Source: a virus. Taken from it: DNA of 20,909 bases. Below the pieces are notes generated by a model, which saw nothing but the letters and a program-made list of their open reading frames with translations, searched no databases and was not told where the DNA came from. Where the stretch lies: IMG/VR virus record IMGVR_UViG_3300038701_000133, positions 1 through 20,909 of that record; one strand, 5' to 3'. This document shows positions 2,033 through 12,799 of this stretch, one piece after another; position 1 is the stretch's first letter; every line of letters starts with the position of its first letter. The position numbers were made by a program, and so were the translations under genes.

Positions 2033-3328
2033 GTGGCGACATTTTTTCAGACACTGCGACGATTTTTCGGCAATGTTGGCTCAACAGGTCAACAAGACGG
2101 TATCCAATACACGGAACCGTTAACCAAAGTCTACGAGACAACCCCGGACTACGGCATTGATGGTGCGATGCAGGTGTCGGCGGTGTGGGCGGCAACGGAG
2201 TTGCTGTCAGACAACATCGCTTCACTGCCGCTGTTCGTGTACGAGCGCGAACCTGGACCTGACGGACACAAGCAGTTAGCCAGAAATACGACCTTGTGGA
2301 CATTGCTGCACGAATCGCCAAACAACCGGCAGACTCCGATGGAGTTTATTCAGTACATGGTGATGAATCACCTGTTGCGCGGCAATGCGTATGCGAGAAT
2401 CATTCGCAACAACAGGGGTGAGGCGATTGGTTTGGTTCCGTTCTCAGCCGATCAGGTTGAGGTAGAGGTGCTTGACGATCAGAGCATGGTCTACAAGTAT
2501 TACTACGAAGGCAAAGTGACCGTTTATGCGCCTGAGTCCATCTTGCATTGGCGAGACAAGGGCAACGGCGTGGTCGGCATGTCTCGGCTTGATTACATGC
2601 GTTCCACTGTCAACGTGGCAGTCAACGCGCAAAACCATACGTCCAATGTGTTTCGCAAATCAGCCAAGCGTCCTGGTGTATTCATGATTGACCGCCTCTT
2701 AACTGACGAGCAAAGGGATGCCATTCGCCGGAACTATAAGGGATTGGTCGAAGGCAACGAGGATGACTTGCTTGTGCTTGAGGCAGGCGCGAAGTTTGAG
2801 CCGCTTTCCATGACTCCGGCAGATGTTCAGTTGCTAGAGACACGGCGATTTAGTGTTGAGGACATTGCCCGATGGTTCGGTATTCCGTCGGCAATGATTA
2901 ACGACACAAGCAAAACGACGACTTGGGGAACGGGGATTAACGAGTTAATCCAAGGGTTCTACAAGTTTCGCTTGCGTCCGATGCTCGAATCGTTTGAGCA
3001 GGCGATTGATAAGCGGGTTTTGACTGCTGCACAGCGTCGCAAATACACGGTTGAGTTCAGTTTGGACGCTATTTTGCGTGGCTCGCTCAAAGACCGTCTA
3101 GAAATTGGCGCAAATGCGGTGCAAAATGGCTTGATGACACGCAACGAATGGCGACAGCTAGAGAATATGCCGCCGATTGACGGGGCTGACGTTCTGACAG
3201 CGCAGGTTAACTTGGCTCCCATTGGGCAGCTTGGGCAGGACGCAGATATATCGCAGACAATCGAAAGAATGGCTTTGGATTTAGCTGAAATTAAGCAAAA
3301 AGCCAGTAAAATCGAACCAAACGAGTAA
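2033..3328 (+). CDS. Portal protein (HK97 family)
   Basis: A 431-residue portal protein, the usual length for the HK97 family. It starts at GTG 2033, preceded by AAGGA at 2022-2026. Recognisable elements are the early V-S-A-V-W-A-A-T-E-L-L-S-D-N-I-A-S-L-P segment (about residues 49-67), followed by L-P-L-F-V-Y. The L-L-R-G-N-A-Y-A-R-I segment lies around 113-122. Around 280-300 is the D-I-A-R-W-F-G-I-P-S-A-M-I-N-D region typical of these portals. Portals form the dodecameric ring at the unique capsid vertex through which DNA passes. The gene lies between terL and the protease, as in HK97-type late operons. The C-terminal 30 residues are charged and helical. Confidence 0.94.
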   Translation: MATFFQTLRRFFGNVGSTGQQDGIQYTEPLTKVYETTPDYGIDGAMQVSAVWAATELLSDNIASLPLFVYEREPGPDGHKQLARNTTLWTLLHESPNNRQTPMEFIQYMVMNHLLRGNAYARIIRNNRGEAIGLVPFSADQVEVEVLDDQSMVYKYYYEGKVTVYAPESILHWRDKGNGVVGMSRLDYMRSTVNVAVNAQNHTSNVFRKSAKRPGVFMIDRLLTDEQRDAIRRNYKGLVEGNEDDLLVLEAGAKFEPLSMTPADVQLLETRRFSVEDIARWFGIPSAMINDTSKTTTWGTGINELIQGFYKFRLRPMLESFEQAIDKRVLTAAQRRKYTVEFSLDAILRGSLKDRLEIGANAVQNGLMTRNEWRQLENMPPIDGADVLTAQVNLAPIGQLGQDADISQTIERMALDLAEIKQKASKIEPNE

Positions 3329-3344
3329 AAGGACGGGTGGCAAT

Positions 3345-4040
3345 ATGATTCAACGAAAAAATATTAGCCTTGGCGACATTGAGTTGAAAATTGCCGCCAA
3401 TGGTGGGTTCGAGGGGTATGCAAGCGTCTTTGGTGGCGTGGATTCGTATAGCGACACCATTATTAAAGGCGCATACGAGGAAGTGATTGAGCGAGTTAAG
3501 GCAGGCGAGTCCCAAATGCCTAAGATGTTCGTCAATCATAAGTCTTGGGATATTCCCGTTGGCAAGTGGACAAAGATGTACGAGGATGAGAAAGGCTTGT
3601 ACATGGAAGGTGAGTTCACCAAAGGCAATCCAGAGGCTGACATGATTAAAGCCGCGCTTCAGCACGGCACAATCGACGGTCTTTCGATTGGCTTTATGGT
3701 TGGCGACTATGAGATGGTAGAGCAGGAAGATGATTATCTACGCATTATCAAGTCGGTCAAGGAACTTCCTGAGGTTTCCATTGTCACCTATCCTGCTGAC
3801 GAAAATGCCAGAGTAGATTTGACAAGTGTTAAGTCTGCGTTGGATAATATGAACACGGTGAAGGATTTAGAGAATTTCTTGCGCGAGGCAGGTGGGTTTT
3901 CTAAGTCGCTTGCAATGGCAACGGTAAGCCGGAGCAAGCGTTTATTTACTCCGGGTGAGCCGGAAGTAGAGCCTGTTGAATTACCGAACGACATAAAGCA
4001 AATGATTGCTTTGAATCTACTTAAATCCAAATCGGAGTAA
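3345..4040 (+). CDS. Prohead maturation protease (HK97 family, peptidase U35)
   Basis: A 231-residue serine protease that cleaves the scaffold-like delta domain from the major capsid protein inside the prohead. The N-terminal half contains E-G-Y-A-S-V-F-G (about residues 23-30) and N-H at 64-65, with H65 the likely catalytic histidine. D-G-L-S-I-G-F at 111-117 carries the likely nucleophile S114. The L-P-E-V-S-I-V-T-Y-P-A segment (141-151) is also characteristic of the family. Residues after about 160 form a linker and helical tail. The start at ATG 3345 is preceded by AAAGGA at 3328-3333. It lies 5 bases before the capsid gene, its substrate. Confidence 0.93.
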   Translation: MIQRKNISLGDIELKIAANGGFEGYASVFGGVDSYSDTIIKGAYEEVIERVKAGESQMPKMFVNHKSWDIPVGKWTKMYEDEKGLYMEGEFTKGNPEADMIKAALQHGTIDGLSIGFMVGDYEMVEQEDDYLRIIKSVKELPEVSIVTYPADENARVDLTSVKSALDNMNTVKDLENFLREAGGFSKSLAMATVSRSKRLFTPGEPEVEPVELPNDIKQMIALNLLKSKSE

Positions 4041-4045
4041 ATACC

Positions 4046-5236
4046 ATGGCTGACCAAATTAGCGAAATCAAAGCCCTTGCCGAAGTGCAAGGCACTCTGC
4101 TTGAAAAGCACAAAGAGTTGAAGGGTTGGATGGAGAAGGCTAACGGCGAAATCGAAGTCGCCCGTAGCGCATCTGCCGAAACCAAAGCCGCACTTGAGAA
4201 GTTGTCCGACCAATCTGCTGAGTTGGCTGATAAGTGCTTGGAAATTGAGCGTCGTGTTGCCGAGGGTAATGAATCGGCTCAGAAAGCCGCTGAAGAAACC
4301 GCCGGTGAGTTGCTTGTTAAGAGCGACAGCTTCAAGTCAATGACCGAGGGTCGTAGCAAGTTTGCTCGCGTTGAGATCAAGGCTGCTATCGTTAACGCTA
4401 CTGGTCAGAACCAGCCTTTGGTTCCTTCAGACCGTCTGCCTGGCATTATCAACAACCCGAACCGTGTTCTTACGATTCGTGATGTATTGCCTGTCGGTCG
4501 CACGACTTCCAACTTGATCGAATTCACGAAAGAAAACGTGTTCACGAACAACGCCGGTCCTCAGTACGACTCACCCGCCACGGAAAACGTGATTAAGCCT
4601 GAGTCAGGCATCACCTTCACTTTGGCTTCAGCACCTGTTGTGACTTTAGCTCACTTCATTCCCGTTTCCCGCCAGGTGATTGACGACGCGCCTCAGCTTG
4701 AGTCCTACGTCAACAGCCGTTTGACCTACGGTTTGAAGTTGGAAGAAGAAGATCAGTTGCTTAACGGCAACGGTACTTCAGGCAACATCTCTGGCATCTT
4801 GAACAGCGGCAACTTCACGGCTTATAACCGTGCCGTTACCGGCGACACCAAGTTAGAGACTCTGCGTCGTGCAATCACCCAAGGTCAGTTGAGCGAGTTC
4901 ATGGTGGACACCATCGTGATGAACCCTGCTGATTGGGAAGAAATTGAGTTGCTCAAGGGTACAGACGGTCAGTTTGTGTTCAGCAACCCAGTGGTGATGG
5001 CAGGTCCTCAGATTTGGGGCAAGCGCGTTGTGCCTACCAACAGCATCGCTTCTGGTACATTCTTGGTTGGTGCAATGGCGATGGGCGCACAGATTTGGGA
5101 CCGTCAGGACGCAGCCGTGCAGATTTCTTATGAAGATGGCGATAACTTCAAAAAGAATATGGCTACACTGCTTGCCGAGGAGCGTTTGGCACTGACGGTG
5201 TACCGTCCTGCTGCTTTCATCTCAGGCTCGTTCTAA
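4046..5236 (+). CDS. Major capsid protein (HK97 fold)
   Basis: A 396-residue HK97-type capsid protein. Residues 1 to about 95 are strongly helical and charged and form the delta domain, which acts as an internal scaffold and is removed by the upstream protease. Cleavage probably falls near residues 100-112. The remainder contains family landmarks: D-R-L-P-G-I-I at about 128-134, an I-R-D-V-L-P-V-G-R-T segment, V-S-R-Q-V-I-D-D-A-P near 208-217, L-N-G-N-G-T-S-G-N-I-S-G-I around 239-251, and M-N-P-A-D-W-E-E-I. Codon use leans towards a smaller set, as expected for a highly expressed protein. It is followed by a strong terminator, consistent with extra transcripts ending after this gene. Confidence 0.96.
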   Translation: MADQISEIKALAEVQGTLLEKHKELKGWMEKANGEIEVARSASAETKAALEKLSDQSAELADKCLEIERRVAEGNESAQKAAEETAGELLVKSDSFKSMTEGRSKFARVEIKAAIVNATGQNQPLVPSDRLPGIINNPNRVLTIRDVLPVGRTTSNLIEFTKENVFTNNAGPQYDSPATENVIKPESGITFTLASAPVVTLAHFIPVSRQVIDDAPQLESYVNSRLTYGLKLEEEDQLLNGNGTSGNISGILNSGNFTAYNRAVTGDTKLETLRRAITQGQLSEFMVDTIVMNPADWEEIELLKGTDGQFVFSNPVVMAGPQIWGKRVVPTNSIASGTFLVGAMAMGAQIWDRQDAAVQISYEDGDNFKKNMATLLAEERLALTVYRPAAFISGSF

Positions 5237-5306: not shown

Positions 5307-5606
5307 ATGGAACTGATTGACGTAATTGCCAAGGCTCACTTTGAGAACCCTAATCTCGGTGCGGTCGCACGAAAGCAACGTCTACGAATTGGCAAGCCTT
5401 TGGCAGAATACTTGGTTGGTCTTGAACTGGTTGACTACGCAAACCCTCCGAAGGCGGTAGTCACAGAGTCCCCCAAGACAGAAGCGGCAGACCTTGGTGG
5501 GGACGAACCGTCTACGTCGTCGCAACCGGACCAAGCCTCACAAGAGGAGACTGTGAGTACATCACGTCGCGGGCGGCGCAGGAAAACCGGCGAATACTCG
5601 CAATAA
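5307..5606 (+). CDS. Small phage protein of unknown function after the capsid gene
   Basis: A 99-residue protein. I chose ATG 5307 over an in-frame TTG at 5295 because GGGA at 5297-5300 sits at a good distance from it. Residues 1-45 look folded (M-E-L-I-D-V-I-A-K onwards, ending in L-E-L-V-D-Y). The rest is low-complexity, rich in S, T, E, D and Q, and ends in a basic S-R-R-G-R-R-R-K patch. Short proteins with a folded start and disordered tail are common just downstream of capsid genes in siphophages; the role is unknown. Its 3' part overlaps coding sequence for the next gene in the -1 frame (see 5435-5641). It begins the cargo block behind the terminator. Confidence 0.7.
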   Translation: MELIDVIAKAHFENPNLGAVARKQRLRIGKPLAEYLVGLELVDYANPPKAVVTESPKTEAADLGGDEPSTSSQPDQASQEETVSTSRRGRRRKTGEYSQ

Positions 5607-5641
5607 AAGATGCGTGGCGACTGCTAGGTAATGCAAACGCA
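5435..5641 (+). other. Upstream in-frame coding extension of the MptE-like gene, with no canonical start codon
   Basis: The frame of the 5642-6094 gene is open back to a TGA at 5432-5434 but has no ATG, GTG or TTG in between. It nevertheless encodes protein that looks like the missing N-terminus of the family: T-V-Y-V-V-A-T-G-P-S-L from about 5507, then R-R-I-L-A-I-K-D-A-W-R-L-L-G-N-A-N-A leading straight into the L-Y-A-C-D-L-H-W-W segment. The G-P-S-L and nucleotide-binding start are conserved in this family, as I know it. The same DNA to 5606 encodes the tail of the preceding gene in the +1-shifted frame. Candidate explanations are -1 frameshifting from that gene (five Cs at 5470-5474), a non-standard start after GGTGGGG (5496-5502), or a lost or gained base. 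Confidence 0.6.
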
Positions 5642-6094
5642 TTGTATGCCTGTGACCTTCATTGGTGGGATAGATATGCTCACGAAATCAAGTCCGGCTT
5701 TGGTGGCGAGTTGTGGACGCAGTGCCGCATTAGCGCACGGAAGTACGGACTCAAGCTATGGCAAGGGCAATCCATGCCGGGGCTAGGTCGAGATAAGTTG
5801 CACTTTGGCAACAATAGTGGCTATCAGGCTATCAATCTTGCATACTTGCTCGGTGCAGAGTCGATTATCTTGTTAGGATTTGACATGAAGCGCAAGGCGG
5901 GCAAGACGCATTTCTTTGGCGATCATCCCTATCACCGGAACCACGAAGGTCCTACCGACCCAATTATGCAACGCTGGTGCGGCAACTTTAAGCAGTTAGC
6001 ACAGGATTTGTCCCACGAAGGCGTTAAGGTCTACAACGCCACCAGAGAAACGGCTTTGACAGCGTTTGAAAAACGAGAGTTAGAGTTATGCTGA
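5642..6094 (+). CDS. MptE/DUF115-like protein (sugar-pathway associated)
   Basis: The first standard start is a TTG at 5642, giving 150 residues, but the true product is probably about 45 residues longer at the N-terminus (see 5435-5641). From the TTG, residues 2-9 read Y-A-C-D-L-H-W-W. Residues 56-72 contain G-N-N-S-G-Y-Q-A-I-N-L-A-Y-L-L-G-A, then S-I-I-L-L-G-F-D-M. Residues 92-96 read F-G-D-H-P, and V-Y-N-A-T precedes the C-terminus. This pattern matches a family common in phages and prophages whose fold resembles 6-hydroxymethylpterin pyrophosphokinase MptE and DUF115 proteins, the latter linked to protein glycosylation. Its reaction is not established. It overlaps the next gene by 7 bases, so it is translated with the glycosyltransferases. 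Confidence 0.75.
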   Translation: MYACDLHWWDRYAHEIKSGFGGELWTQCRISARKYGLKLWQGQSMPGLGRDKLHFGNNSGYQAINLAYLLGAESIILLGFDMKRKAGKTHFFGDHPYHRNHEGPTDPIMQRWCGNFKQLAQDLSHEGVKVYNATRETALTAFEKRELELC

Positions 6095-6759
6095 CCATAT
6101 TTTGCGGGTTTGATAACCGAGAGGCGATTGGATACCACGTCTTTTGTGCGAGCGTCCTGCACCGGGCAAGCATACCAGTTTCGTTTTCTCCTTTGCGAAT
6201 CAGAACCTCAGACCAAGGCACAAACCAGTTTACGGTGTCTCGATTCCTTGTTCCGTACTTGATGGGATACAAAGGCACTGCGGTATTTGCTGATGCTGCT
6301 GACATGATTTGCTTGGCTGACGTGGCTGAACTTGAGCAACAGCTAAAGGACGTTAAAAACCCCGTTGGTTTAGTCAAGCACGACTACAAAACCCGTCACA
6401 AGGTGAAGTACGTCGGCACAGACATGCAAAGCCCGAATGTGGACTACGAGCGCAAGAACTGGGCAAGCCTGATGTTAATGGATTGCGAGAATCCGGCATG
6501 GAAGTCGGTTACGCCAAAGTCGCTAAACACATGGAGCATGATTGACCTGCTGAAATTCAAGTTCCTTGATGACAGCGAGATCACCGAAATCCCTGACTGC
6601 TGGAATCGTCTTGTTGACGAGGGGCAAAGCGTTGAGGGAGCGAAGATACTGCATTGGACAGCGGGCATCCCCGGATTCAAGCATTACGCCGACGCACCAG
6701 GTGCTGACTTGTGGCGCAAAGAACTGGAACGGACGTGCTACCCATTACATACGCCATAA
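6088..6759 (+). CDS. Glycosyltransferase, GT8-like (GT-A fold)
   Basis: A 223-residue putative sugar transferase. It opens with I-F-C-G-F-D-N-R-E-A-I-G-Y-H-V (residues 4-18), typical of GT8-related enzymes. A-V-F-A-D-A-A-D-M at 65-73 supplies the acidic D69-x-x-D72 motif that would bind the metal and nucleotide-sugar. Residues 95-120 carry the V-K-H-D-Y segment, N-W-A-S-L-M-L follows at about 124-130, and H189-W190 lies in a late H-W-T-A-G segment that in GT8 enzymes also contacts the metal. Donor and acceptor cannot be inferred. It starts at ATG 6088 inside the end of the previous gene and overlaps the next. Confidence 0.85.
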   Translation: MLTIFCGFDNREAIGYHVFCASVLHRASIPVSFSPLRIRTSDQGTNQFTVSRFLVPYLMGYKGTAVFADAADMICLADVAELEQQLKDVKNPVGLVKHDYKTRHKVKYVGTDMQSPNVDYERKNWASLMLMDCENPAWKSVTPKSLNTWSMIDLLKFKFLDDSEITEIPDCWNRLVDEGQSVEGAKILHWTAGIPGFKHYADAPGADLWRKELERTCYPLHTP

Positions 6760-7481
6760 AGTCGGCTCTCACGTCGCCTAAGTTTGGCAAAGCGTTTGCC
6801 AAAGGGTGCAAGGGTCAGTTGGTCTACCACGACAAGCTACCTGCCGAGGGAGGCATCGCCATGTTCGGGCATCCTGATCTCATGTCAATGCTTCATGAGG
6901 CGCAAGACCAAGGCAGGGACTGGTACTACGGCGACAAAGCGTATTTTGGACGTGAGGCGTACTATCGAGCCACCAAGAACGCCTACATGCACAATGCGGT
7001 AGGCGAACCTGACTACAAAAGGTTATCTAAGATAGGCATCAAAGCACAGCCGTGGCGCAATGGCTCATACATCTTGCTTTGCCCGCAAAGTCCGCTTTTC
7101 TTTGCCATGCAGGGAAAAAATCGAAATGAGTGGATTTACTCTGTGACCAAAGAGTTGAAAAAGCACACCAACAGAAAGGTCAGGGTCAGGGAAACCAAGA
7201 AAAGCCCCGGCACAGAGAGCGCGTTTAGGAAGTCGCTTGACGACGTATGGGCAGTCGTTGTGCATTCGTCGATGGCAGGAACACAAGCGGCTATGCACGG
7301 CGTTCCTTGCTTTGCTACTGACCCTGATTGCACGTCTGCCGCATTTGGGTCAACAGACCTATCCTTAATTGAATCGCCGGTCAAACCGGATAATCGTGAC
7401 GACATGGCTGCTGTGTTGGCGGCTAATCAATGGACGCTTGATGAAATCGCATCGGGCATGGCATGGGAGCATATCAAATGA
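6735..7481 (+). CDS. GT-B-like putative glycosyltransferase or sugar-binding protein
   Basis: A 248-residue protein when started at GTG 6735, which has GGAACGG just upstream; a GTG at 6711 would add eight residues. A Y-Y-G-D-K-A-Y-F segment lies at about 64-71, P-W-R-N-G-S-Y-I-L-L-C-P-Q-S at 106-119, and V-V-H-S-S-M-A-G-T-Q-A-A-M-H-G-V-P at 175-191. The last resembles the donor-binding region of GT-B enzymes, where a histidine-serine turn is followed by a helix and G-x-P. The C-terminal Q-W-T-L-D-E-I-A-S-G-M-A-W is a recurrent ending in this phage-associated family. The function is inferred from the GT-B-like motif and from sitting between two other sugar genes; no substrate is visible. Confidence 0.68.
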   Translation: MLPITYAIKSALTSPKFGKAFAKGCKGQLVYHDKLPAEGGIAMFGHPDLMSMLHEAQDQGRDWYYGDKAYFGREAYYRATKNAYMHNAVGEPDYKRLSKIGIKAQPWRNGSYILLCPQSPLFFAMQGKNRNEWIYSVTKELKKHTNRKVRVRETKKSPGTESAFRKSLDDVWAVVVHSSMAGTQAAMHGVPCFATDPDCTSAAFGSTDLSLIESPVKPDNRDDMAAVLAANQWTLDEIASGMAWEHIK

Positions 7482-8134
7482 AAGTATGGGAAGGCATTTA
7501 TTTGCCAGAAAGCGAAACGCATTTAGTGGATTGGATGAAGGCGGTCAAGCACTACGTTGATGGCAAGCCTACTTACCAATACAGTAAGTATGCCGAATGC
7601 CTAAAGATCATTAAAAACCGCAGGCTTGCCATTGATGTTGGCGGCAACCTTGGTCTTTGGTCTAGGGTTATGTGCCTAGACTTTGATCGTGTTGAGGCGT
7701 TTGAGCCAGTGCCTGAATATGCTGAGTACTTCCGCAAAAACGCACCGAACGCCAATCTTAACGAGGTTGCTCTATCGGACTCCGAGGAAATCATCACAAT
7801 GGCTTGCGCTACCAATGGCTCTTGTGGCGATACGGCTCCAATGGTCAGTAAGCGCAAGGAAAAGCCGTTGTGCGAGGTTTTGACGTGGAAGCTAGATGCG
7901 TTTGAGTTTAAGGACGTTGGCTTTATCAAGGTGGATTGCGAGGGCTACGAATTGCATGTGCTAAAAGGCGCAGAGCAAACCATCTTGGATAGCAAGCCTG
8001 TCATTATTGTCGAGCAAAAGCCCGGCAAGGGCAAAAAGTACGGATACAAGGACACTGCGGCTGTCTCATATCTTGAGACACTAGGCATGAAAGTCCATAA
8101 GGTGATTTCCGGCGACTACATCATGAGGTGGTAA
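7478..8134 (+). CDS. FkbM-family SAM-dependent methyltransferase
   Basis: A 218-residue methyltransferase. Start ATG 7478 overlaps the previous stop as ATGA, with GGGAG at 7465-7469 as ribosome binding site. SAM motif I is A-I-D-V-G-G-N-L-G-L-W-S at residues 51-62. The acidic end of the next strand is E-A-F-E-P-V at 73-78. V-A-L-S at 97-100 and F-I-K-V-D-C-E-G-Y-E-L-H-V-L-K-G-A at 149-165 are hallmark FkbM segments, and I-V-E-Q at 177-180 completes the core. FkbM enzymes usually O-methylate sugars or polyketides. Among glycosyltransferases this one most likely methylates a sugar hydroxyl, which in other systems caps or finishes a glycan. That role here is inference. Confidence 0.9.
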   Translation: MKVWEGIYLPESETHLVDWMKAVKHYVDGKPTYQYSKYAECLKIIKNRRLAIDVGGNLGLWSRVMCLDFDRVEAFEPVPEYAEYFRKNAPNANLNEVALSDSEEIITMACATNGSCGDTAPMVSKRKEKPLCEVLTWKLDAFEFKDVGFIKVDCEGYELHVLKGAEQTILDSKPVIIVEQKPGKGKKYGYKDTAAVSYLETLGMKVHKVISGDYIMRW

Positions 8135-8875
8135 ATGGGTTGGGGCGACGAACTAATGGCGGCAGGCGAGGCGATGGCAATGGGTGGTGTAGTTGCCATT
8201 AAAGACCGAAATGGCAATCACAGATACCATCCGGCATGGGAAAACAATCCGTTCATTGCCAAACCGGGTGATAAGTACACAAGGTTCATTGTCAATGCGC
8301 CAGGTTATCGCCCCTACTTCACGGCGGTCAATCAGTCAGCTTGGACGTGGCGTTCATACAGACCAAAGCCTGCCAAGATGTTCTTTTCTGACGATGAGTT
8401 GGCTTTTGCGGGCATGATTGAAAACAACTTTGTAGTGGTTGAGCCAAATCTCAAACACAAGGTTGAATCGGTTAACCGAGACTGGGGCTGGGATAATTTT
8501 GCCCGTGTCACAAAGGAAGTGGACGCAGATTGGGTTCAATTCGGTGCTACCAAGCCTAAACTCTTACCCAATGCACGTTGGATTCAAACGCCTAGCCCAA
8601 GACACATGGCGGCGGCTTTAGCTAAGTCCAAGGCTTTCCTTGCGCCAGAGGGCGGGCTACATCACACGGCAGCGGCATTAAACCTCAAGGGCGTGGTGCT
8701 GTTCGGCGGGTTTATCGCACCGCAAGTCACGGGCTACAAGATGCACAAGAATATATTTATCGGAGATGGCTTAGGATGCGGTAAGCGGGTAAAATGTGAG
8801 CATTGTGAGCAGGCTTGGTCTAAGATCGACCCTGAGCGCATCATTAAAATCATGAGAGGCATGGCAAATGGCTGA
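8135..8875 (+). CDS. Glycosyltransferase, GT9/heptosyltransferase-like
   Basis: A 246-residue GT-B-type protein starting at ATG 8135, directly after the preceding TAA, with GAGGTGG as ribosome binding site. It begins W-G-D-E-L-M-A-A-G-E-A (3-13), comparable to the G-D-x-L-x-x start of GT9 heptosyltransferases. The donor-site segment A-P-E-G-G-L-H-H-T-A-A-A-L (170-182) is followed by V-V-L-F-G-G. A cysteine cluster, C215, C221 and C224, near the C-terminus could bind a metal or form a structural site; it is not part of classical heptosyltransferases. GT9 enzymes add heptose to lipopolysaccharide core, but phage relatives are uncharacterised. It overlaps the next gene by 8 bases. Confidence 0.82.
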   Translation: MGWGDELMAAGEAMAMGGVVAIKDRNGNHRYHPAWENNPFIAKPGDKYTRFIVNAPGYRPYFTAVNQSAWTWRSYRPKPAKMFFSDDELAFAGMIENNFVVVEPNLKHKVESVNRDWGWDNFARVTKEVDADWVQFGATKPKLLPNARWIQTPSPRHMAAALAKSKAFLAPEGGLHHTAAALNLKGVVLFGGFIAPQVTGYKMHKNIFIGDGLGCGKRVKCEHCEQAWSKIDPERIIKIMRGMANG

Positions 8876-9488
8876 CCAACTCTACAAAGGACCATTCAAT
8901 GAGGATATGCGTCTCATCGACATGGGCGATGGCACATTTGCCGAGCGGGTGGATGCTTACCCGCCGAAAAAGCTAATGACCGATGATGATGGCGATTATG
9001 CTCGACTGCGGGTAGATGTTGAGCAAACAGGGTTTTTAGCGGGTCGTGAGTTCAGGGTAAACCATGAGTTTTCGATTGCCAGTGGTGCTACGCAAGTCAT
9101 TAAGGTGGTCGCAGGTGTAGATACCATCCTCTACGATTTTATGGTTGAATTGACATTGGCTGAATTGGCGGTCAGACTTAAATCTGGTGGCACGGAAGGC
9201 GGCACGTTTGGCAATTCGATTAGCGTGATGAAAACCAATCAAATGTCCACTGCTTCTAGCTACACAAGCCAAGTAACAATGGCTTATGGCGGCACTCACA
9301 CAGGCGGCACGACGATTGATACCAATTATCTAATATCGGGTGCTAATGCCAATAAATCCACCGCTGAGGCGGCAGGGCAAGACAACCCGTTGGGATTTGC
9401 CGCCGGAACGTATTACATCATCTTAGAGAATACGGACGGAAACACCGCCACAGGCGTGTTTAAGGCTCGTTGGGAGGAGCGTCCATGA
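8868..9488 (+). CDS. Probable virion protein, beta-rich, function unknown
   Basis: A 206-residue protein of a type seen in several phage late regions. Residues 45-67 read Y-A-R-L-R-V-D-V-E-Q-T-G-F-L-A-G-R-E-F-R. The middle is alternating hydrophobic and polar, as in beta sandwiches. Residues 107-166 are rich in G, T, S and N, and the end is T-Y-Y-I-I-L-E-N-T followed by A-T-G-V-F-K-A-R-W-E-E-R-P. No catalytic motif, signal peptide or membrane segment is visible. It is coupled to the GT9-like gene upstream and to the head-tail connector downstream. A capsid decoration or neck/whisker component is plausible, and its T/S-rich surface would make it a candidate acceptor for the sugar enzymes. Both ideas are inference. 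Confidence 0.7.
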   Translation: MADQLYKGPFNEDMRLIDMGDGTFAERVDAYPPKKLMTDDDGDYARLRVDVEQTGFLAGREFRVNHEFSIASGATQVIKVVAGVDTILYDFMVELTLAELAVRLKSGGTEGGTFGNSISVMKTNQMSTASSYTSQVTMAYGGTHTGGTTIDTNYLISGANANKSTAEAAGQDNPLGFAAGTYYIILENTDGNTATGVFKARWEERP

Positions 9489-10069
9489 ACTATTTAATCA
9501 AGACCGTACAGCCTACTAGCGAGCCTGTCACGCTTGCTGAAGCGCAGTTGCACCTACGCTTGGACACTGACGGTTCGCCTCCGTCGCACCCTGATGACAC
9601 ATTGGTGCAAACCCTAATTAGTGCGGCAAGGGAAAACGCTGAGCAGTACACAGGCGTGACAATCGCTCAAGCGACGTATCAAGTTAAAAACGAGGTAAAG
9701 AATGACCAGATGAGTTTACAGACGCATCCGGTAACGTCCGTAGCCTCTGTGACCTACGAGGATGCCGATGGAGAGACTCAAACGGTTGATGCGGCAGATT
9801 ACTATGTCGATAACTTTCAGCGTCCTGCACGGCTTGTTTTCAGGTCTAATGCGCCGAGTTTCGACACGACAGTTACCTTCACGGCGGGCTATACGGACGG
9901 GCAAAGCCCGAATGATTATCCGACACCGGCGGGAGTCAAAGCGGCGATCTTGCTAATGGTTGGCAATCTCTACGAGAATCGGGAGACTGTGACCGAGACT
10001 GAATCATTTGAGCGTCCGCAGTCGGCAACTTATCTGCTTACACCGCATCGCATTAACATGGGGCTGTAA
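9485..10069 (+). CDS. Head-tail connector, gp6-like adaptor
   Basis: A 194-residue protein with start ATG 9485, preceded by the strong GGGAGGAG at 9472-9479, and an ATGA overlap with the previous gene. The opening Y-L-I-K-T-V-Q-P-T-S-E-P-V-T-L-A-E-A-Q-L-H-L-R-L segment is diagnostic for gp6-like/phage connector proteins. Further landmarks are D-D-T-L-V-Q-T-L-I-S-A-A-R-E-N-A-E-Q-Y-T-G, then V-T-F-T-A-G-Y, and a late A-I-L-L-M-V-G-N-L-Y-E-N-R-E segment. In HK97 and SPP1 the equivalent ring docks under the portal and begins the neck. The expected position directly before the head-closure gene supports the call. Confidence 0.9.
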   Translation: MNYLIKTVQPTSEPVTLAEAQLHLRLDTDGSPPSHPDDTLVQTLISAARENAEQYTGVTIAQATYQVKNEVKNDQMSLQTHPVTSVASVTYEDADGETQTVDAADYYVDNFQRPARLVFRSNAPSFDTTVTFTAGYTDGQSPNDYPTPAGVKAAILLMVGNLYENRETVTETESFERPQSATYLLTPHRINMGL

Positions 10070-10398
10070 TGGACATTGGCAGACTAAACAAGCGCGTGAC
10101 GATTCAGCAACAGTCGTCAACCTATGATGCCGCAGGGCAGTTGGTTGAAGATTGGTCTACGTTTGCGACTGTTTGGGCTGATATTAAGCACAAGTCTGGC
10201 AGTGAAACGATCAAGTCAGGTGCTATTGCCTCTGACGTTCAAGCAAGCATCCGCATTCGCTACAAGCAGGGCGTGACCGCAGGTATGCGGGTGACATTCA
10301 AAACATCGCAGTACGAAATCTTGGCTGTGCTGCCTCACGTTAATGAGAACCGTTATGTTGACTTGGCGGTAAGGCTAATCAATGGGGGTGTCCCATGA
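10069..10398 (+). CDS. Head closure / head-tail adaptor protein (SPP1 gp16-like)
   Basis: A 109-residue beta-barrel-type protein. D-I-G-R-L-N-K-R-V-T-I-Q-Q at residues 2-14 is the typical start. It continues with D-W-S-T-F-A-T-V-W-A-D-I near 26-37 and an R-I-R-Y-K-Q-G-V-T-A-G-M-R-V segment, then Y-E-I-L-A-V-L. This is the standard pattern of head-tail joining proteins that seal the DNA-filled head below the connector. The ATG shares one base with the previous TAA, so translation is coupled. Length is normal for the family. Confidence 0.9.
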   Translation: MDIGRLNKRVTIQQQSSTYDAAGQLVEDWSTFATVWADIKHKSGSETIKSGAIASDVQASIRIRYKQGVTAGMRVTFKTSQYEILAVLPHVNENRYVDLAVRLINGGVP

Positions 10399-11006
10399 TT
10401 AACATGAAAGTCAAATTAACCGATGATTTCACCAAGCAGTTGAAGAAGTTGGGCGATGGCATTAAGACTCACGTTGCCAGGTCAACAGCTAGGGCGGGGG
10501 CGTTGGCTTATTATCAAACGCTTTTGGACAATACGCCAATAGGTCCAACTGGAAACTTGCATCGTTCGGCTTACCATGCCTACGCCGATGATGCTTCCAC
10601 TGCCAATTACAAAGAATATCAGGTTGGATTCCGTGGTAACTATGGCAAGAAACAAACAAAACAAAATGAGGGCGCGGCTCGATCAAACCATTTGCACTTG
10701 GTGGAGTTTGGGCATATTGTTCGCTACGCTTACAAGAAAGATAAAAATACTGGCGAATGGATTACGCTAGTTAGACCTCAAAAAATGGGTACACCTAGAC
10801 CAAACCCTCAAACCGCATCTCAAGCTGAAATGGATGCGTATTATATACCTCTAAAAAGACCGTTTCAGATACCTGGCAAAGGCTTTGTTCGTCGCAGCTT
10901 TGACCAAGCCAAGGCTCTTGCGCCTATGGCTATGGAAAAGCGAGCCTCAGAGCGTCTTGCCGAGTTAATCAAAAACCCTTCATTGGCGAGCAAGTATGTT
11001 GATTGA
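10395..11006 (+). CDS. HK97 gp10-like neck / tail-completion protein
   Basis: A 203-residue protein starting at ATG 10395, overlapping the previous TGA as ATGA; an in-frame ATG at 10404 would drop three residues. The opening helix (residues 4-40) leads to A-L-A-Y-Y-Q-T-L-L-D-N-T-P-I-G-P-T-G-N-L-H, typical of the HK97 gp10 family, in which a small loop with P-x-G-x-G-N-L is conserved. H-L-H-L-V-E-F-G-H at about 98-106 is the other family hallmark. The protein is longer than many relatives because of an insertion around residues 112-160. It is expected to join the head-closure ring to the tail terminator. Confidence 0.87.
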   Translation: MINMKVKLTDDFTKQLKKLGDGIKTHVARSTARAGALAYYQTLLDNTPIGPTGNLHRSAYHAYADDASTANYKEYQVGFRGNYGKKQTKQNEGAARSNHLHLVEFGHIVRYAYKKDKNTGEWITLVRPQKMGTPRPNPQTASQAEMDAYYIPLKRPFQIPGKGFVRRSFDQAKALAPMAMEKRASERLAELIKNPSLASKYVD

Positions 11007-11367
11007 AACTGATATTAGAGCCGCAATCCTTTCCGCTGCGCCTAACAGGGTATTCCCTGACGTGGCTCCGTCGCCTATATTGGCAGACTCAAATCCTGAC
11101 CCTTTTGTGGTGTATCAGGTAATTGGCGGTATTGGTCGCAGGCGTATAGAGTCGGCTGATTCGCTTAAAATGTACAGGGTGCAGTTTTCTTGCTATGCAA
11201 AGACAAGAATTTTGTGCAGTAACTTGGCAATTTTGGTAGAATCAGGGTTAAACAGTGCTACTTCATTCAAAGCGGTTGCACTGAATGAGCCAATTTCAAC
11301 CTATGAGGACGAAGTTGGTCTTTATGGGTGTATGCAGGACTTTTCAATACACTATCAAGTAGCATAA
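10996..11367 (+). CDS. Tail terminator / tail completion protein (DUF3168/gp17-like)
   Basis: A 123-residue protein overlapping the previous gene by 11 bases. It opens I-E-T-D-I-R-A-A-I-L-S-A-A, then V-F-P-D-V-A-P. P-F-V-V-Y-Q-V-I-G-G follows at about residues 36-45, then M-Y-R-V-Q-F-S-C-Y-A near 59-68. The order of an N-terminal helix, a P-x-V-x-Y strand and a v-Q-f-d-c-y-a strand is that of DUF3168/SPP1 gp17-type tail completion proteins, which cap the tail tube and dock it to the head. The size and position immediately before the tail tube gene agree. Confidence 0.86.
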   Translation: MLIETDIRAAILSAAPNRVFPDVAPSPILADSNPDPFVVYQVIGGIGRRRIESADSLKMYRVQFSCYAKTRILCSNLAILVESGLNSATSFKAVALNEPISTYEDEVGLYGCMQDFSIHYQVA

Positions 11368-11389
11368 CTCTCTGCCGCATGGCGTTTTT

Positions 11390-11395
11390 GGAGGA
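11390..11395 (+). promoter_or_regulatory. Strong Shine-Dalgarno of the tail tube gene
   Basis: GGAGGA lies 6 bases before ATG 11402. It is one of the best ribosome binding sites in the window and the tail tube gene is one of the few here that does not overlap its neighbour. This fits the need for many copies of the tube protein. Confidence 0.75.
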
Positions 11396-11401
11396 ATTAT
11401 T

Positions 11402-11875
11402 ATGAGCGTTCAAACAGTAGCAGGTGCAGTCATTAGCATTTCTGCAACCACGCCAGCGACTTTCGACCAGTCTGGCTATGAAACCGTATTTACTGGTTCG
11501 CCAGTTTCTGTCATTGGTGAAATCACCGATGCCGGTCAACATGGTCGTGTCTACAACGTAGTCACGCACAACCCCATTGGCAACCGTGGTACGCAAAAGT
11601 ACAAGGGTTCGTTCAATGAAGGTCAGAAAGTTTTGACCGTTGGCGTTGATGACGACGATGCAGGTCAAAGCCTGGCAATCACCGCGCTTGATAGCGACGA
11701 CGACTACAGCTTCAAAGTTGCTTATCAGGATGGTGCTGTCGATTACTTCCAAGCCAAAGTTGTTGGCTTCCAGAAGTCAATGACAGGCGTTGACACCATG
11801 TTGTCTGCAACCCTGACATTGGAGATCACCACGTCCGCAGGTGGCGTTGGTATCATCCACGTTGATGCCGCCTAA
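11402..11875 (+). CDS. Major tail (tube) protein
   Basis: A 157-residue protein with the all-beta profile of siphovirus tail tube subunits. It lies between the tail terminator and the frameshifted chaperone genes, the conserved place for this gene. Residues 1-20 (S-V-Q-T-V-A-G-A-V-I-S-I-S-A-T) resemble the start of a recognisable tube protein family. Y-K-G-S-F-N-E-G lies at about 66-73, then L-T-V-G-V-D-D-D-D-A-G-Q near 77-88 and S-F-K-V-A-Y-Q-D-G. The end strand reads S-A-T-L-T-L-E-I-T. Hexameric rings of such proteins stack around the tape measure to form the tube. Codon use resembles the capsid gene, suggesting high expression. Confidence 0.87.
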   Translation: MSVQTVAGAVISISATTPATFDQSGYETVFTGSPVSVIGEITDAGQHGRVYNVVTHNPIGNRGTQKYKGSFNEGQKVLTVGVDDDDAGQSLAITALDSDDDYSFKVAYQDGAVDYFQAKVVGFQKSMTGVDTMLSATLTLEITTSAGGVGIIHVDAA

Positions 11876-11978: not shown

Positions 11979-12389
11979 ATGTCTCTCAAAAAGTATTCCC
12001 TGACAGAAACGGCAACCTTGCACATTCAGACTCCTGATGGCGAGTTAATGTACATCGACGATGAGATGACCAAGCCGGTTCAGTTGCATCTATACGGCAT
12101 TGGCTCAAAACAGTATCAAGCCGCCGAGCGCAAGCGTCAGGACACCCTTGCAAACAAGTTCAAGCGGTATAAGCAAAAGCCAATCCCAAGCGAAGAACTT
12201 GAGGAATTGCGCGTTGACTTTTTGGTGCGCTGTGTCGCCGGTTGCGAGAACTTTGAATTGGATGGTAAGCAAGGCGAGGAACTGTATCGTGCCGTGTTTG
12301 GTGATCGTTCCTTGGTGTTCATCACTGACCAAGTTGACCGATTCATTGGCGATCAGGCAAATTTTACCGGGAAGCCTTTGACGAACTAA
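11979..12389 (+). CDS. Tail assembly chaperone, short form (lambda gpG-like)
   Basis: A 136-residue protein, ATG 11979 after GAGGAAG at 11969-11975. It is preceded by the tail tube gene and followed by a -1 overlapping frame and the tape measure, exactly as for lambda G and T. The sequence is rich in charged helices, with K-Y-S-L-T-E-T-A-T-L near the start, Y-G-I-G-S-K-Q-Y-Q-A-A-E-R-K-R around residues 39-53 and a helical C-terminal half that ends Q-A-N-F-T-G-K-P-L-T-N. G-type proteins coat the tape measure and recruit tube subunits during tail assembly. The slippery site lies near the 3' end, leaving only 7 codons after it. Confidence 0.88.
   Translation: MSLKKYSLTETATLHIQTPDGELMYIDDEMTKPVQLHLYGIGSKQYQAAERKRQDTLANKFKRYKQKPIPSEELEELRVDFLVRCVAGCENFELDGKQGEELYRAVFGDRSLVFITDQVDRFIGDQANFTGKPLTN
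12359..12365 (+). promoter_or_regulatory. Programmed -1 ribosomal frameshift site (A AAT TTT)
   Basis: The heptamer A AAT TTT fits X XXY YYZ in the G reading frame, where the codons are GCA AAT TTT ACC. A shift of -1 lets ribosomes read TAC CGG GAA GCC TTT GAC and so on, straight into the open frame running to 12799. The G stop is only 22 bases further on. Tail chaperone G/GT frameshifting is conserved in siphophages; the site here is directly visible. Confidence 0.88.
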
Positions 12390-12799
12390 CGCTGTATGCT
12401 CGGTATGTGGGATGGCTCCATGCCGTGCCAAAGTTAAAGGCTAACGACGCTTCAACCGAAACTAGGCAAACCAAGTTTGCTAACGAAGGCAGGCAGATAG
12501 ATTTTCCACCTTGTGAGATGATGTACATGGTGGATTATCTATTTTCTGCCGGACCCGTCACCCCGACAGGCATGGGGTCAATCCCATTAACTCACCAAGA
12601 AATACTTTCATGGCGTAGTAACATGCAGGTTGACTTATGCCCGTGGGAAATCAATGCTCTGCGGGAAATGTCGAGACAATACCTGTCTGAGTTGGTACAA
12701 TCAGACAAGCATGATTCCCCGCCACCTTGGGTCGCCGAGATCGACGAAGAAAAAGGCAAAATGGTCGCGGAGAGGGTAAAAGATATTTTGAGGGGTTGA
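12365..12799 (+). CDS. T extension of the tail assembly chaperone (GT fusion by -1 frameshift)
   Basis: This is the -1 frame continuation of the G gene. Reading 11979-12365 and then resuming at 12365 gives a 273-residue GT protein. The T part begins Y-R-E-A-F-D-E-L-T-L-Y-A-R-Y-V-G-W-L-H-A-V-P-K-L. That segment, up to the GTG at 12407, is upstream of any standard start and only makes sense as a fusion. Later it reads L-C-P-W-E-I-N-A-L-R-E-M-S and P-P-P-W-V-A-E-I, and it ends at a TGA one base before the tape measure ATG. In lambda the T domain binds the tail tube protein while G binds the tape measure. A standalone product from GTG 12407 is less likely. Confidence 0.85.
   Translation, partial: YREAFDELTLYARYVGWLHAVPKLKANDASTETRQTKFANEGRQIDFPPCEMMYMVDYLFSAGPVTPTGMGSIPLTHQEILSWRSNMQVDLCPWEINALREMSRQYLSELVQSDKHDSPPPWVAEIDEEKGKMVAERVKDILRG

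Follow-up and report, generated by a model that had tools for sequence, protein, structure and literature searches.

A predicted -1 frameshift joining a small post-capsid gene to a Maf-like glycosyltransferase gene in a phage late operon

The cassette between capsid and connector

The window analysed here is the whole 20,909-nucleotide stretch of the IMG/VR virus record IMGVR_UViG_3300038701_000133. On its plus strand, the genes lie in the order capsid, ORF A, MptE/DUF115-like, GT8-like, GT-B-like, FkbM methyltransferase, GT9-like, P6 and connector, with the following features.

4046..5236, plus strand: HK97-type major capsid protein (PF05065, 5.7e-53; phrog_10, 6.7e-69)
5307..5606, plus strand: ORF A, the zero frame, 99 aa; an open reading frame with a confident 45-aa domain and a disordered tail
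5441..5447, plus strand: putative -1 slip heptamer A_AAC_CCT, read in the frame of ORF A and 87 nt ahead of the GPSL codons
5447..6094, plus strand: -1-frame part of the predicted fusion, 215 aa, MptE/DUF115, Maf-/GT42-like, without a start codon of its own (from codon constraint and structural model)
5307..6094, plus strand: predicted frameshift product, 47 + 215 = 262 aa (sequence prediction)
6088..6759, plus strand: P2, GT8-like (GT-A) glycosyltransferase (phrog_28018, 3.1e-29; GT8 in 3 of 13 alignment members)
6735..7481, plus strand: P3, GT-B-like; start GTG 6735 or GTG 6711 (Capsule_synth in 1 of 13, DUF6716 in 2 of 13 alignment members)
7478..8134, plus strand: FkbM-family methyltransferase (PF05050, 54.9 bits, exceeding the cut-off of 22.7)
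8135..8875, plus strand: GT9-like (heptosyltransferase-like) glycosyltransferase (PF01075, 17.3 bits, below the cut-off of 22)
8868..9488, plus strand: P6, next to the connector gene (phrog_13935, 4.7e-33)
9485..10069, plus strand: head-tail connector/adaptor, the right border of the cassette (PF05135, 1.9e-9; phrog_442, 7.6e-29)

The original prediction had described six genes running as one translationally coupled cassette between the capsid and connector genes, and this was borne out: the six genes are in place on the plus strand, the flanking capsid and head-tail adaptor genes are as named, and 'translationally coupled' is a fair description because the junctions (ATGCTGA, ATGA and TAAATG) overlap or abut. 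Two of its assignments were not sustained. Position 5307, taken as the start of the DUF115 gene, is the start of ORF A, the DUF115 gene lying in the -1 frame without a usable start, and P6, called a probable virion protein, matches a family without assigned function. Independent viral contigs keep the order capsid-ORF A-DUF115-GT8-GTB-FkbM-GT9-(P6)-connector, which is therefore not due to chance. It is thus very improbable that an ordinary glycosylation cassette merely happened to land in the late operon and acts on the host surface; phages do carry surface-modifying transferases, but the position between capsid and connector is conserved and the DUF115 gene is linked to ORF A.

Several of the enzyme names are deliberately cautious. 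Of the 13 sequences in the P2 alignment, three match the GT8 family (PF01501), the best at 2.4e-7; the window protein does not at E up to 0.1, hence GT8-like only. The window protein is likewise not among the members of the 13-member GT-B-like alignment that match Capsule_synth or DUF6716, and profiles from the GT-B-like and GT8-like alignments brought no useful match in the PDB. The GT9-like profile found the ADP-heptose LPS heptosyltransferase II (1psw, E 0.0045); this enzyme is named GT9-like only because its PF01075 score falls under the cut-off. The earlier remark that no characterised pathway holds exactly this set proved weaker than its wording, as the greater part of it is found again, likewise clustered among late genes, in Caulobacter jumbo phages. 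In CcrColossus, DUF115-, GT-B-, GT8- and GT9-like genes are clustered between a tail gene and the lysis genes, and in Pelagibacter phage Mosig GT8, GT-B and FkbM genes are clustered. Unlike its counterpart in the window, however, the CcrColossus DUF115 gene has in-frame start codons and does not lie behind a capsid gene.

The ORF A domain and the DUF115 enzyme

In the AlphaFold model of ORF A, residues 1-45 begin with strands and are predicted with a pLDDT of about 90, while the rest is disordered. The domain resembles the C-terminal domain of lambda gpFI (2LSM; Z 5.4, rmsd 1.5 over 45, Foldseek E 0.085), a weak match whose score is tied with those of unrelated small domains (GINS and ribosomal L9). 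Lambda gpFI has a helical N-terminal domain that the ORF A model lacks, and ORF A is not filed as gpFI. The gpFI gene also sits behind its capsid gene, as ORF A does. PMC4856287 describes gpFI as attached to the gpE lattice. Going by the model, the ORF A domain is probably a capsid-docking domain. The tail of ORF A is basic in 34 of 41 cases, yet the third, unused frame is basic in 37 of 41; since that frame is just as basic, the tail supports nothing, and its reading as a sign of DNA binding was rejected.

The DUF115 gene of the window has no ATG, GTG or TTG ahead of its conserved core (GPSL) and lies in the -1 frame relative to ORF A. The MptE-like family PF01973 scores 27.7 bits with the N-terminus read in the -1 frame and 17.4 bits without it, both under the cut-off of 34.6, and is matched by 34 of 36 relatives at E up to 0.1. 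The model of this part (pLDDT 91.6) finds its best structural match in the flagellin glycosyltransferase Maf (5MU5; Z 15.9, rmsd 3.1 over 181 residues), followed by the GT42 sialyltransferase CstII (Z 11.8), with the next unrelated rows at 4.4; residues 11-20 of the -1 frame are confidently folded. CstII has the GPSL and SG...LG..xIyL.G.D motifs in common with the window enzyme, although the sequence profile reaches an E of merely 0.1. What the model supports for the DUF115 part is likeness of fold to Maf and PF01973 (MAF_flag10), the same Pfam family at a weak score, and it is not filed as a family member. Maf enzymes transfer nonulosonic acids onto Ser/Thr of flagellin, with CMP-Neu5Ac and KDO accepted, according to passages of PMC11339370. 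The window's DUF115 part differs from Maf in having neither the N-terminal nor the C-terminal Maf domain, in its place within a phage head operon and in the predicted frameshift that would join it to a capsid-side domain.

Reading frames, start codons and slippery sites

The frame relation was surveyed in two sets of DUF115 sites. The first holds 94 non-redundant sites of 109 (contig scan, best 80 of 570 relatives) and the second, a fresh scan, 36 of 66 new sites (best 80 of 486 relatives); both were thinned of sites exceeding 85% likeness in the compared stretch, 19 loci in which no GPSL motif could be recognised were left out before counting, and 11 loci on contigs already in the first set were left out of the fresh scan. 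Capsid adjacency was assigned with the window capsid as tblastn query in the first set, and in the second with a profile built from 77 capsid ORFs. Among the best 80 of 570, the DUF115 gene overlaps its upstream neighbour in the -1 frame at 41 of 42 capsid-adjacent sites and lacks a start at 36 of 42, against 16 of 52 and 8 of 52 elsewhere (Fisher, 2.9e-12 for the -1 overlap and 3.5e-12 for start absence). The fresh scan (best 80 of 486) gave 24/24 and 21/24 for capsid-adjacent sites, and 3/12 and 2/12 elsewhere. A +1 relation was rejected (12/53 vs 49/53 for -1; redundant set, best 80 of 570). Among bacterial genomes surveyed at class and genus level, the query's own genome was the sole hit (1/369 and 1/298).

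Codon constraint among 13 members of the window's clade follows one frame switch, to the -1 frame just below the slip site. The one-switch model gains 39.7 lnL over the ORF A frame throughout and 78.3 over the -1 frame throughout, with its maximum-likelihood switch at -64 (interval -76 to -58). The heptamer lies at -87 to -81, and a switch placed at -86 is 12.7 lnL worse than the best; we would explain this offset by an unconstrained linker.

A_AAC_CCT stands 87 nt ahead of the GPSL codons in the window and in most clade members, with its AACCC unchanged in 13 members. L003 has C_AAC_CCT, and L050 is without a site. Across the first set (best 80 of 570), X_XXY_YYZ heptamers occur in the ORF A frame at 27 of 36 sites and in the other frames at 6 and 6 of 36; in the fresh scan (best 80 of 486) the counts are 8 of 21 against 0 and 2. 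When C_CC[ACT] is also admitted they rise to 35/36 vs 17 and 15, and 20/21 vs 6 and 9, respectively; as C_CC[ACT] was picked after the first set had been inspected, only the fresh scan tests it. C_CCN is the commonest slip element across the relatives. Phage D3 carries C_CCA_AAG, and five relatives (L019, L020, L023, L060 and L064) carry A_AAA_AAG, both named as highly shift-prone in E. coli in passages of PMC5009743; the passages on frameshifting cited here do not list A_AAC_CCT as a shift-prone heptamer. A slip at C_CCC_AAG in the window clade was rejected, as it is absent in L011. For stimulatory RNA structure, ten sequences gave no fold better than their shuffles (z -1.07 to +1.00). The consensus stem is weak, and a conserved stem CCCCAAG/CTTGGTGGGG was rejected as a stimulator, since the more distant members do not keep it and z is near 0.

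These counts also bear on whether the DUF115 protein is translated alone, beginning at a non-canonical start or through re-initiation inside ORF A, with tight packing as the only reason for the overlap. Translational coupling is common in the operon, and D3 and PMG1 each carry a single GTG in frame, 22 codons ahead of GPSL; but no alignment column holds a near-start codon in at least 5 of the 13 clade members, on which ground an in-frame non-canonical start was rejected, the heptamers are enriched in a single register, and random packing would use both other frames rather than -1 almost throughout the capsid-adjacent sites of both scans. Separate translation is accordingly distinctly improbable.

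The laboratory phage D3 and the phages PMG1 and Psp6 have the same ORF A/DUF115 layout as the window, which speaks against an assembly error. Most of the contigs are metagenomic, but a misassembled or decayed gene is extremely improbable given the same break in independent contigs and in these isolates, and the coding constraint on the -1 frame. Single-frame fusions of an ORF A-like domain to DUF115 are found in L084 (27.7 bits) and L056 (8.6 bits), each with 0 of 500 shuffles; both sit behind tail or portal/fibre-like genes, with no capsid gene there. L054, behind a capsid gene, has a marginal in-frame score (11/500 shuffles), and L089 was rejected as a fusion (266/500). The missing start codon, the -1 overlap tied to the capsid gene, the slippery sites in register, the constraint switch and the conserved cassette can all be read from the sequence.

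A possible route to virion glycosylation

We consider it probable that a -1 slip makes a minority protein that docks a glycosyltransferase on the capsid, with the other enzymes extending and methylating the glycan. ORF A would be a small domain docking on the capsid lattice. Most ribosomes would terminate it at 5606, while some would slip back one base at A_AAC_CCT (5441-5447) to yield the 262-aa protein, the ORF A domain ahead of a Maf/sialyltransferase-type enzyme. Once bound to proheads or capsids, this minority fusion would add the first sugar to the capsid or another virion protein; lengthening of the glycan would fall to the GT8-like, GT-B-like and GT9-like enzymes and its methylation to the FkbM enzyme. 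The listing of the related P1 pmgO as nonessential (PMC10695390) counts against this reading. We infer that the slip occurs, that the ORF A domain binds the capsid and that the acceptor is a virion protein. Because start codons in the cassette overlap the stop codons ahead of them, the output of the cassette may also depend on the slip. As originally proposed, late expression and a methyl-capped glycan made by several enzymes stay the natural reading, the frameshift having been missed. Of the two targets then named, new virions and the surface of the lysing host, virions are the better supported, because the DUF115 enzyme is joined by a predicted frameshift to a gpFI-like domain directly behind the capsid gene and because its fold is closest to Maf enzymes, which glycosylate proteins. 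Nothing in the analysis points to glycosylation of DNA bases.

On the other hand, the frameshift could be real and the fusion serve capsid assembly or packaging, the enzyme modifying host lipopolysaccharide or being structural only. P1 pmgO was annotated with a putative morphogenetic function and the Eowyn relative as 'structural protein'. In addition, the GT9-like and KpsC-like partners are similar to enzymes of LPS and capsule, and D3 has capsid-ORF A-DUF115-connector alone at the equivalent place, without the other transferases. Yet the enzyme fold and conserved residues are kept across lineages, and a surface-lipid target gains nothing from a joint with a capsid-side gene; we regard this alternative as unlikely, if worth keeping in mind.

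Parts of the literature on phage -1 frameshifts (PMC5009743, PMC10885494, PMC3556154) describe the appending of domains, as in the A2 and T3 capsid extensions and the tail assembly chaperones. Those frameshifts add Ig-like or chaperone domains, whereas the one in the window would add an enzyme. FlmG of Caulobacter, as portrayed in sections of PMC7591256, directs a glycosyltransferase to a polymerising protein by an N-terminal substrate-binding domain; the likeness is in working only, its domains being unrelated and encoded in a single reading frame. In the openly licensed PMC literature we found no paper describing a post-capsid gene that is fused by frameshifting to a gene of the DUF115/sialyltransferase-like kind.

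A bolder extension, which we rate as a long shot, is that HK97-type phages have a glycosylate-in-place device: one overlapping gene whose short product binds the capsid and whose rarer -1 product brings a Maf-type transferase to the same lattice. The glycan of the window clade would then mimic the LPS inner core: the Maf/KpsC-like and GT9-like enzymes would build it with CMP-Kdo and ADP-heptose taken from the host, FkbM would cap it, and the virion surface would come to look host-like.

The favoured reading, docking of a minority frameshift product on the capsid, accounts for the annotated start of D3 orf7 lying downstream of the homology, and for the split of the D3 region into orf6.5 and orf7. 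It also offers a testable role for small post-capsid proteins (phrog_2616, phrog_7993 and DUF7302/DUF7210-like). If true, it would be a case of a frameshift fusion adding an enzyme to a phage capsid-side protein, and would give a concrete mechanism of virion glycosylation in which recoding ties a limited transferase to the very structure being modified.

A DUF115 frame without a start codon

In the window, no ATG, GTG or TTG occurs in frame between the core of the DUF115 gene (VYVVATGPSLT), which encodes an MptE/Maf-like enzyme, and the last upstream stop codon. The gene lies in the −1 frame relative to ORF A (5307-5606, + strand), the small gene behind the HK97-type capsid gene. Both features are common to those examined of the close relatives L002-L014 (63-76% identical), which also keep a −1-frame N-terminus resembling PQDRSGRPWWGR; its inclusion improves the PF01973 (Pfam) match of the window protein from E 0.0041 to 2.7e-6. 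At every alignment column, fewer than five of the 13 members of the window's clade have a near-start codon.

A first scan by alignment covered 80 viral loci (the best 80 of 570 relatives) and 16 genome loci. It gave 109 sites with the motif, 53 of them with no start at a distance of at least 8 codons upstream; with near-identical sites included, 49 of these 53 overlapped an upstream ORF in the register needing a −1 shift, and 12 in the +1 register. Removal of near-identical sites left 94. Those lying no more than 600 nt downstream of a capsid gene showed −1 overlap in 41/42 cases and no start in 36/42, as against 16/52 and 8/52 elsewhere (Fisher 2.9e-12 and 3.5e-12). A second scan, run with another query (best 80 of 486 relatives), added 36 new sites, with −1 overlap in 24/24 capsid-adjacent sites versus 3/12 others, and no start in 21/24 versus 2/12. 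Any one short open stretch may lack a start codon by chance; the evidence is the contrast between the two groups, together with the fixed register.

Slippery sites and codon constraint

X_XXY_YYZ heptamers were sought in the ORF A frame of startless capsid-adjacent sites, from the final DUF115-frame stop to the motif. They occurred in 27/36 sites of the first set, versus 6/36 in each of the remaining registers (Fisher 1.1e-6 against one of them). Many heptamer-less sites have a C before a proline codon (C_CCN), and heptamer or C_CC[ACT] was found in 35/36, versus 17 and 15. The second scan gave 8/21 (versus 0 and 2) and 20/21 (versus 6 and 9), respectively. Since site types differ among lineages (A_AAC_CCT, A_AAA_AAG, C_CCT_TTA, C_CCA_AAG, G_GGA_AAA), the comparison suggests that the slip site evolved repeatedly. 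The site of phage D3, C_CCA_AAG, is highly prone to shifting in Escherichia coli according to an excerpt of PMC5009743, which says the same of A_AAA_AAG and G_GGA_AAG. No stimulatory RNA structure was found at the slip sites.

As read from the alignment, substitutions in the window's clade directly indicate a frame switch. Counting from the conserved GPSL, changes above the slip site (−147 to −87) fall mostly at ORF A third positions (98/212), and those below it (−45 to 0) mostly at −1-frame third positions (35/68). A model with a single switch gains 39.7 lnL over one that keeps the ORF A frame along the whole stretch and 78.3 over one that keeps the −1 frame. The likelihood is highest with the switch placed 64 nt ahead of GPSL (interval 76-58); the heptamer lies further upstream, at 87-81, and placing the switch at −86 costs 12.7 lnL. 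We read this gap as an unconstrained linker, although the fit is not exact. A −1 frameshift very probably joins ORF A and DUF115.

A second −1 arrangement in the window involves the two ORFs ahead of the tape measure gene (11979-12799), the first of which contains, in its own frame, the heptamer A_AAT_TTT near 12359. This is probably the customary frameshift of tail assembly chaperones.

The cassette and its relatives

The 20,909-base viral contig carries a standard head-tail operon of terminase, portal, protease, HK97-type capsid, connectors and tail genes. The original prediction placed a sugar-transfer and methylation cassette between capsid and connector genes (5307-9488), and its genes are indeed there, with abutting or overlapping start and stop codons. 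DUF115, GT8-like, GT-B-like, FkbM methyltransferase and GT9-like genes follow in identical order in the related contigs L002, L004-L008, L011-L014 and L045; in L033, FkbM was not detectable. Most of the enzyme set is not unique: CcrColossus has DUF115-, GT-B-, GT8- and GT9-like genes, flanked there by a tail gene and the lysis genes, and Mosig groups GT8- and GT-B-like genes with FkbM. A minimal layout of capsid, ORF A, DUF115 and connector is found in D3, L048-L050, L052 and L053; because such versions exist, the frameshift pair may be the core and the remaining transferases variable cargo. In surveys of class (1/369) and genus (1/298) genomes only the query's own genome matched, and the family accordingly appears to be borne by phages.

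P6 (phrog_13935), possibly a virion protein, recurs near head genes (window 8868-9488; L046 1350-1886, between capsid and ORF A; L141 1998-2651). Tetraselmis viridis virus S20 carries a transferase/methyltransferase cassette between capsid and head-closure genes (5591-11860), including two DUF115-like matches, the first annotated from a start within the homology. Seven contigs (L069, L074, L077, L080, L081, L094, L099) have two DUF115-like sites, adjacent in L074, L077, L080, L081 and L094; of these five adjacent pairs, four have an ATG 12 codons ahead of the second site. In Citrobacter phage phiNP, a DUF115 match (3001-3588) occupies a stretch without an annotated gene, followed by an annotated 'sialyltransferase'.

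The layout is also present in the isolated phages D3 (orf6.5/orf7), PMG1 and Psp6. The annotated start of D3 orf7 falls downstream of the homologous stretch. One in-frame GTG is present in each of D3 and PMG1, so independent DUF115 initiation is possible there. PAJU2, of D3's genus, differs in that its DUF115 follows a head-closure gene and has a conventional ATG 16 codons upstream. The D3 connector gene orf9 begins within the end of the DUF115 frame (3536-3555), and frameshifting might therefore also affect connector dosage.

An ORF A-like domain and DUF115 share one frame in the related contigs L084 (27.7 bits) and L056 (8.6 bits), each with 0/500 shuffles; L054 is marginal (11/500), and L089 was rejected (266/500). 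Because the L084 and L056 fusions lie behind tail or portal/fibre-like genes, the ORF A-like domain may lack specificity for capsids.

The predicted fusion protein

The predicted frameshift product comprises 47 residues from ORF A and 215 more. In the ORF A model, residues 1-45 form a confident domain. Among solved structures it matches the C-terminal domain of lambda gpFI at Z 5.4 (rmsd 1.5 over 45 residues), a score level with those of GINS and ribosomal L9 domains. Among viral predicted structures it matches small uncharacterised and DUF7210 proteins, and its PHROG matches (phrog_2616, phrog_7993, phrog_829) are all without function. We favoured gpFI for its biology, not its score, namely capsid-lattice binding and the position of its gene behind the capsid gene. 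Part of PMC4856287 describes gpFI bound to the prohead capsid lattice.

The enzyme model (pLDDT 91.6) best matches Maf (5MU5, Z 15.9), followed by CstII (11.8), MptE and SteA (both 10.8) and ST8SiaIII (8.6), the next rows being at 4.4; the DUF115 part is probably a glycosyltransferase. PMC11339370 describes Maf enzymes as glycosylating flagellin from CMP-activated sugars. In FlmG, according to an extract of PMC7591256, a binding domain steers the glycosyltransferase, a precedent in principle for an ORF A domain directing the DUF115 enzyme.

Given these resemblances of the ORF A domain to gpFI and of the enzyme part to Maf, a flagellin glycosyltransferase, the frameshift product would be a protein glycosyltransferase docked on the capsid, and its partner enzymes would extend the glycan and methylate it. 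Putative capsid docking by the ORF A domain is slightly favoured, and glycosylation of the virion, likewise putative, appears a little better than an even chance.
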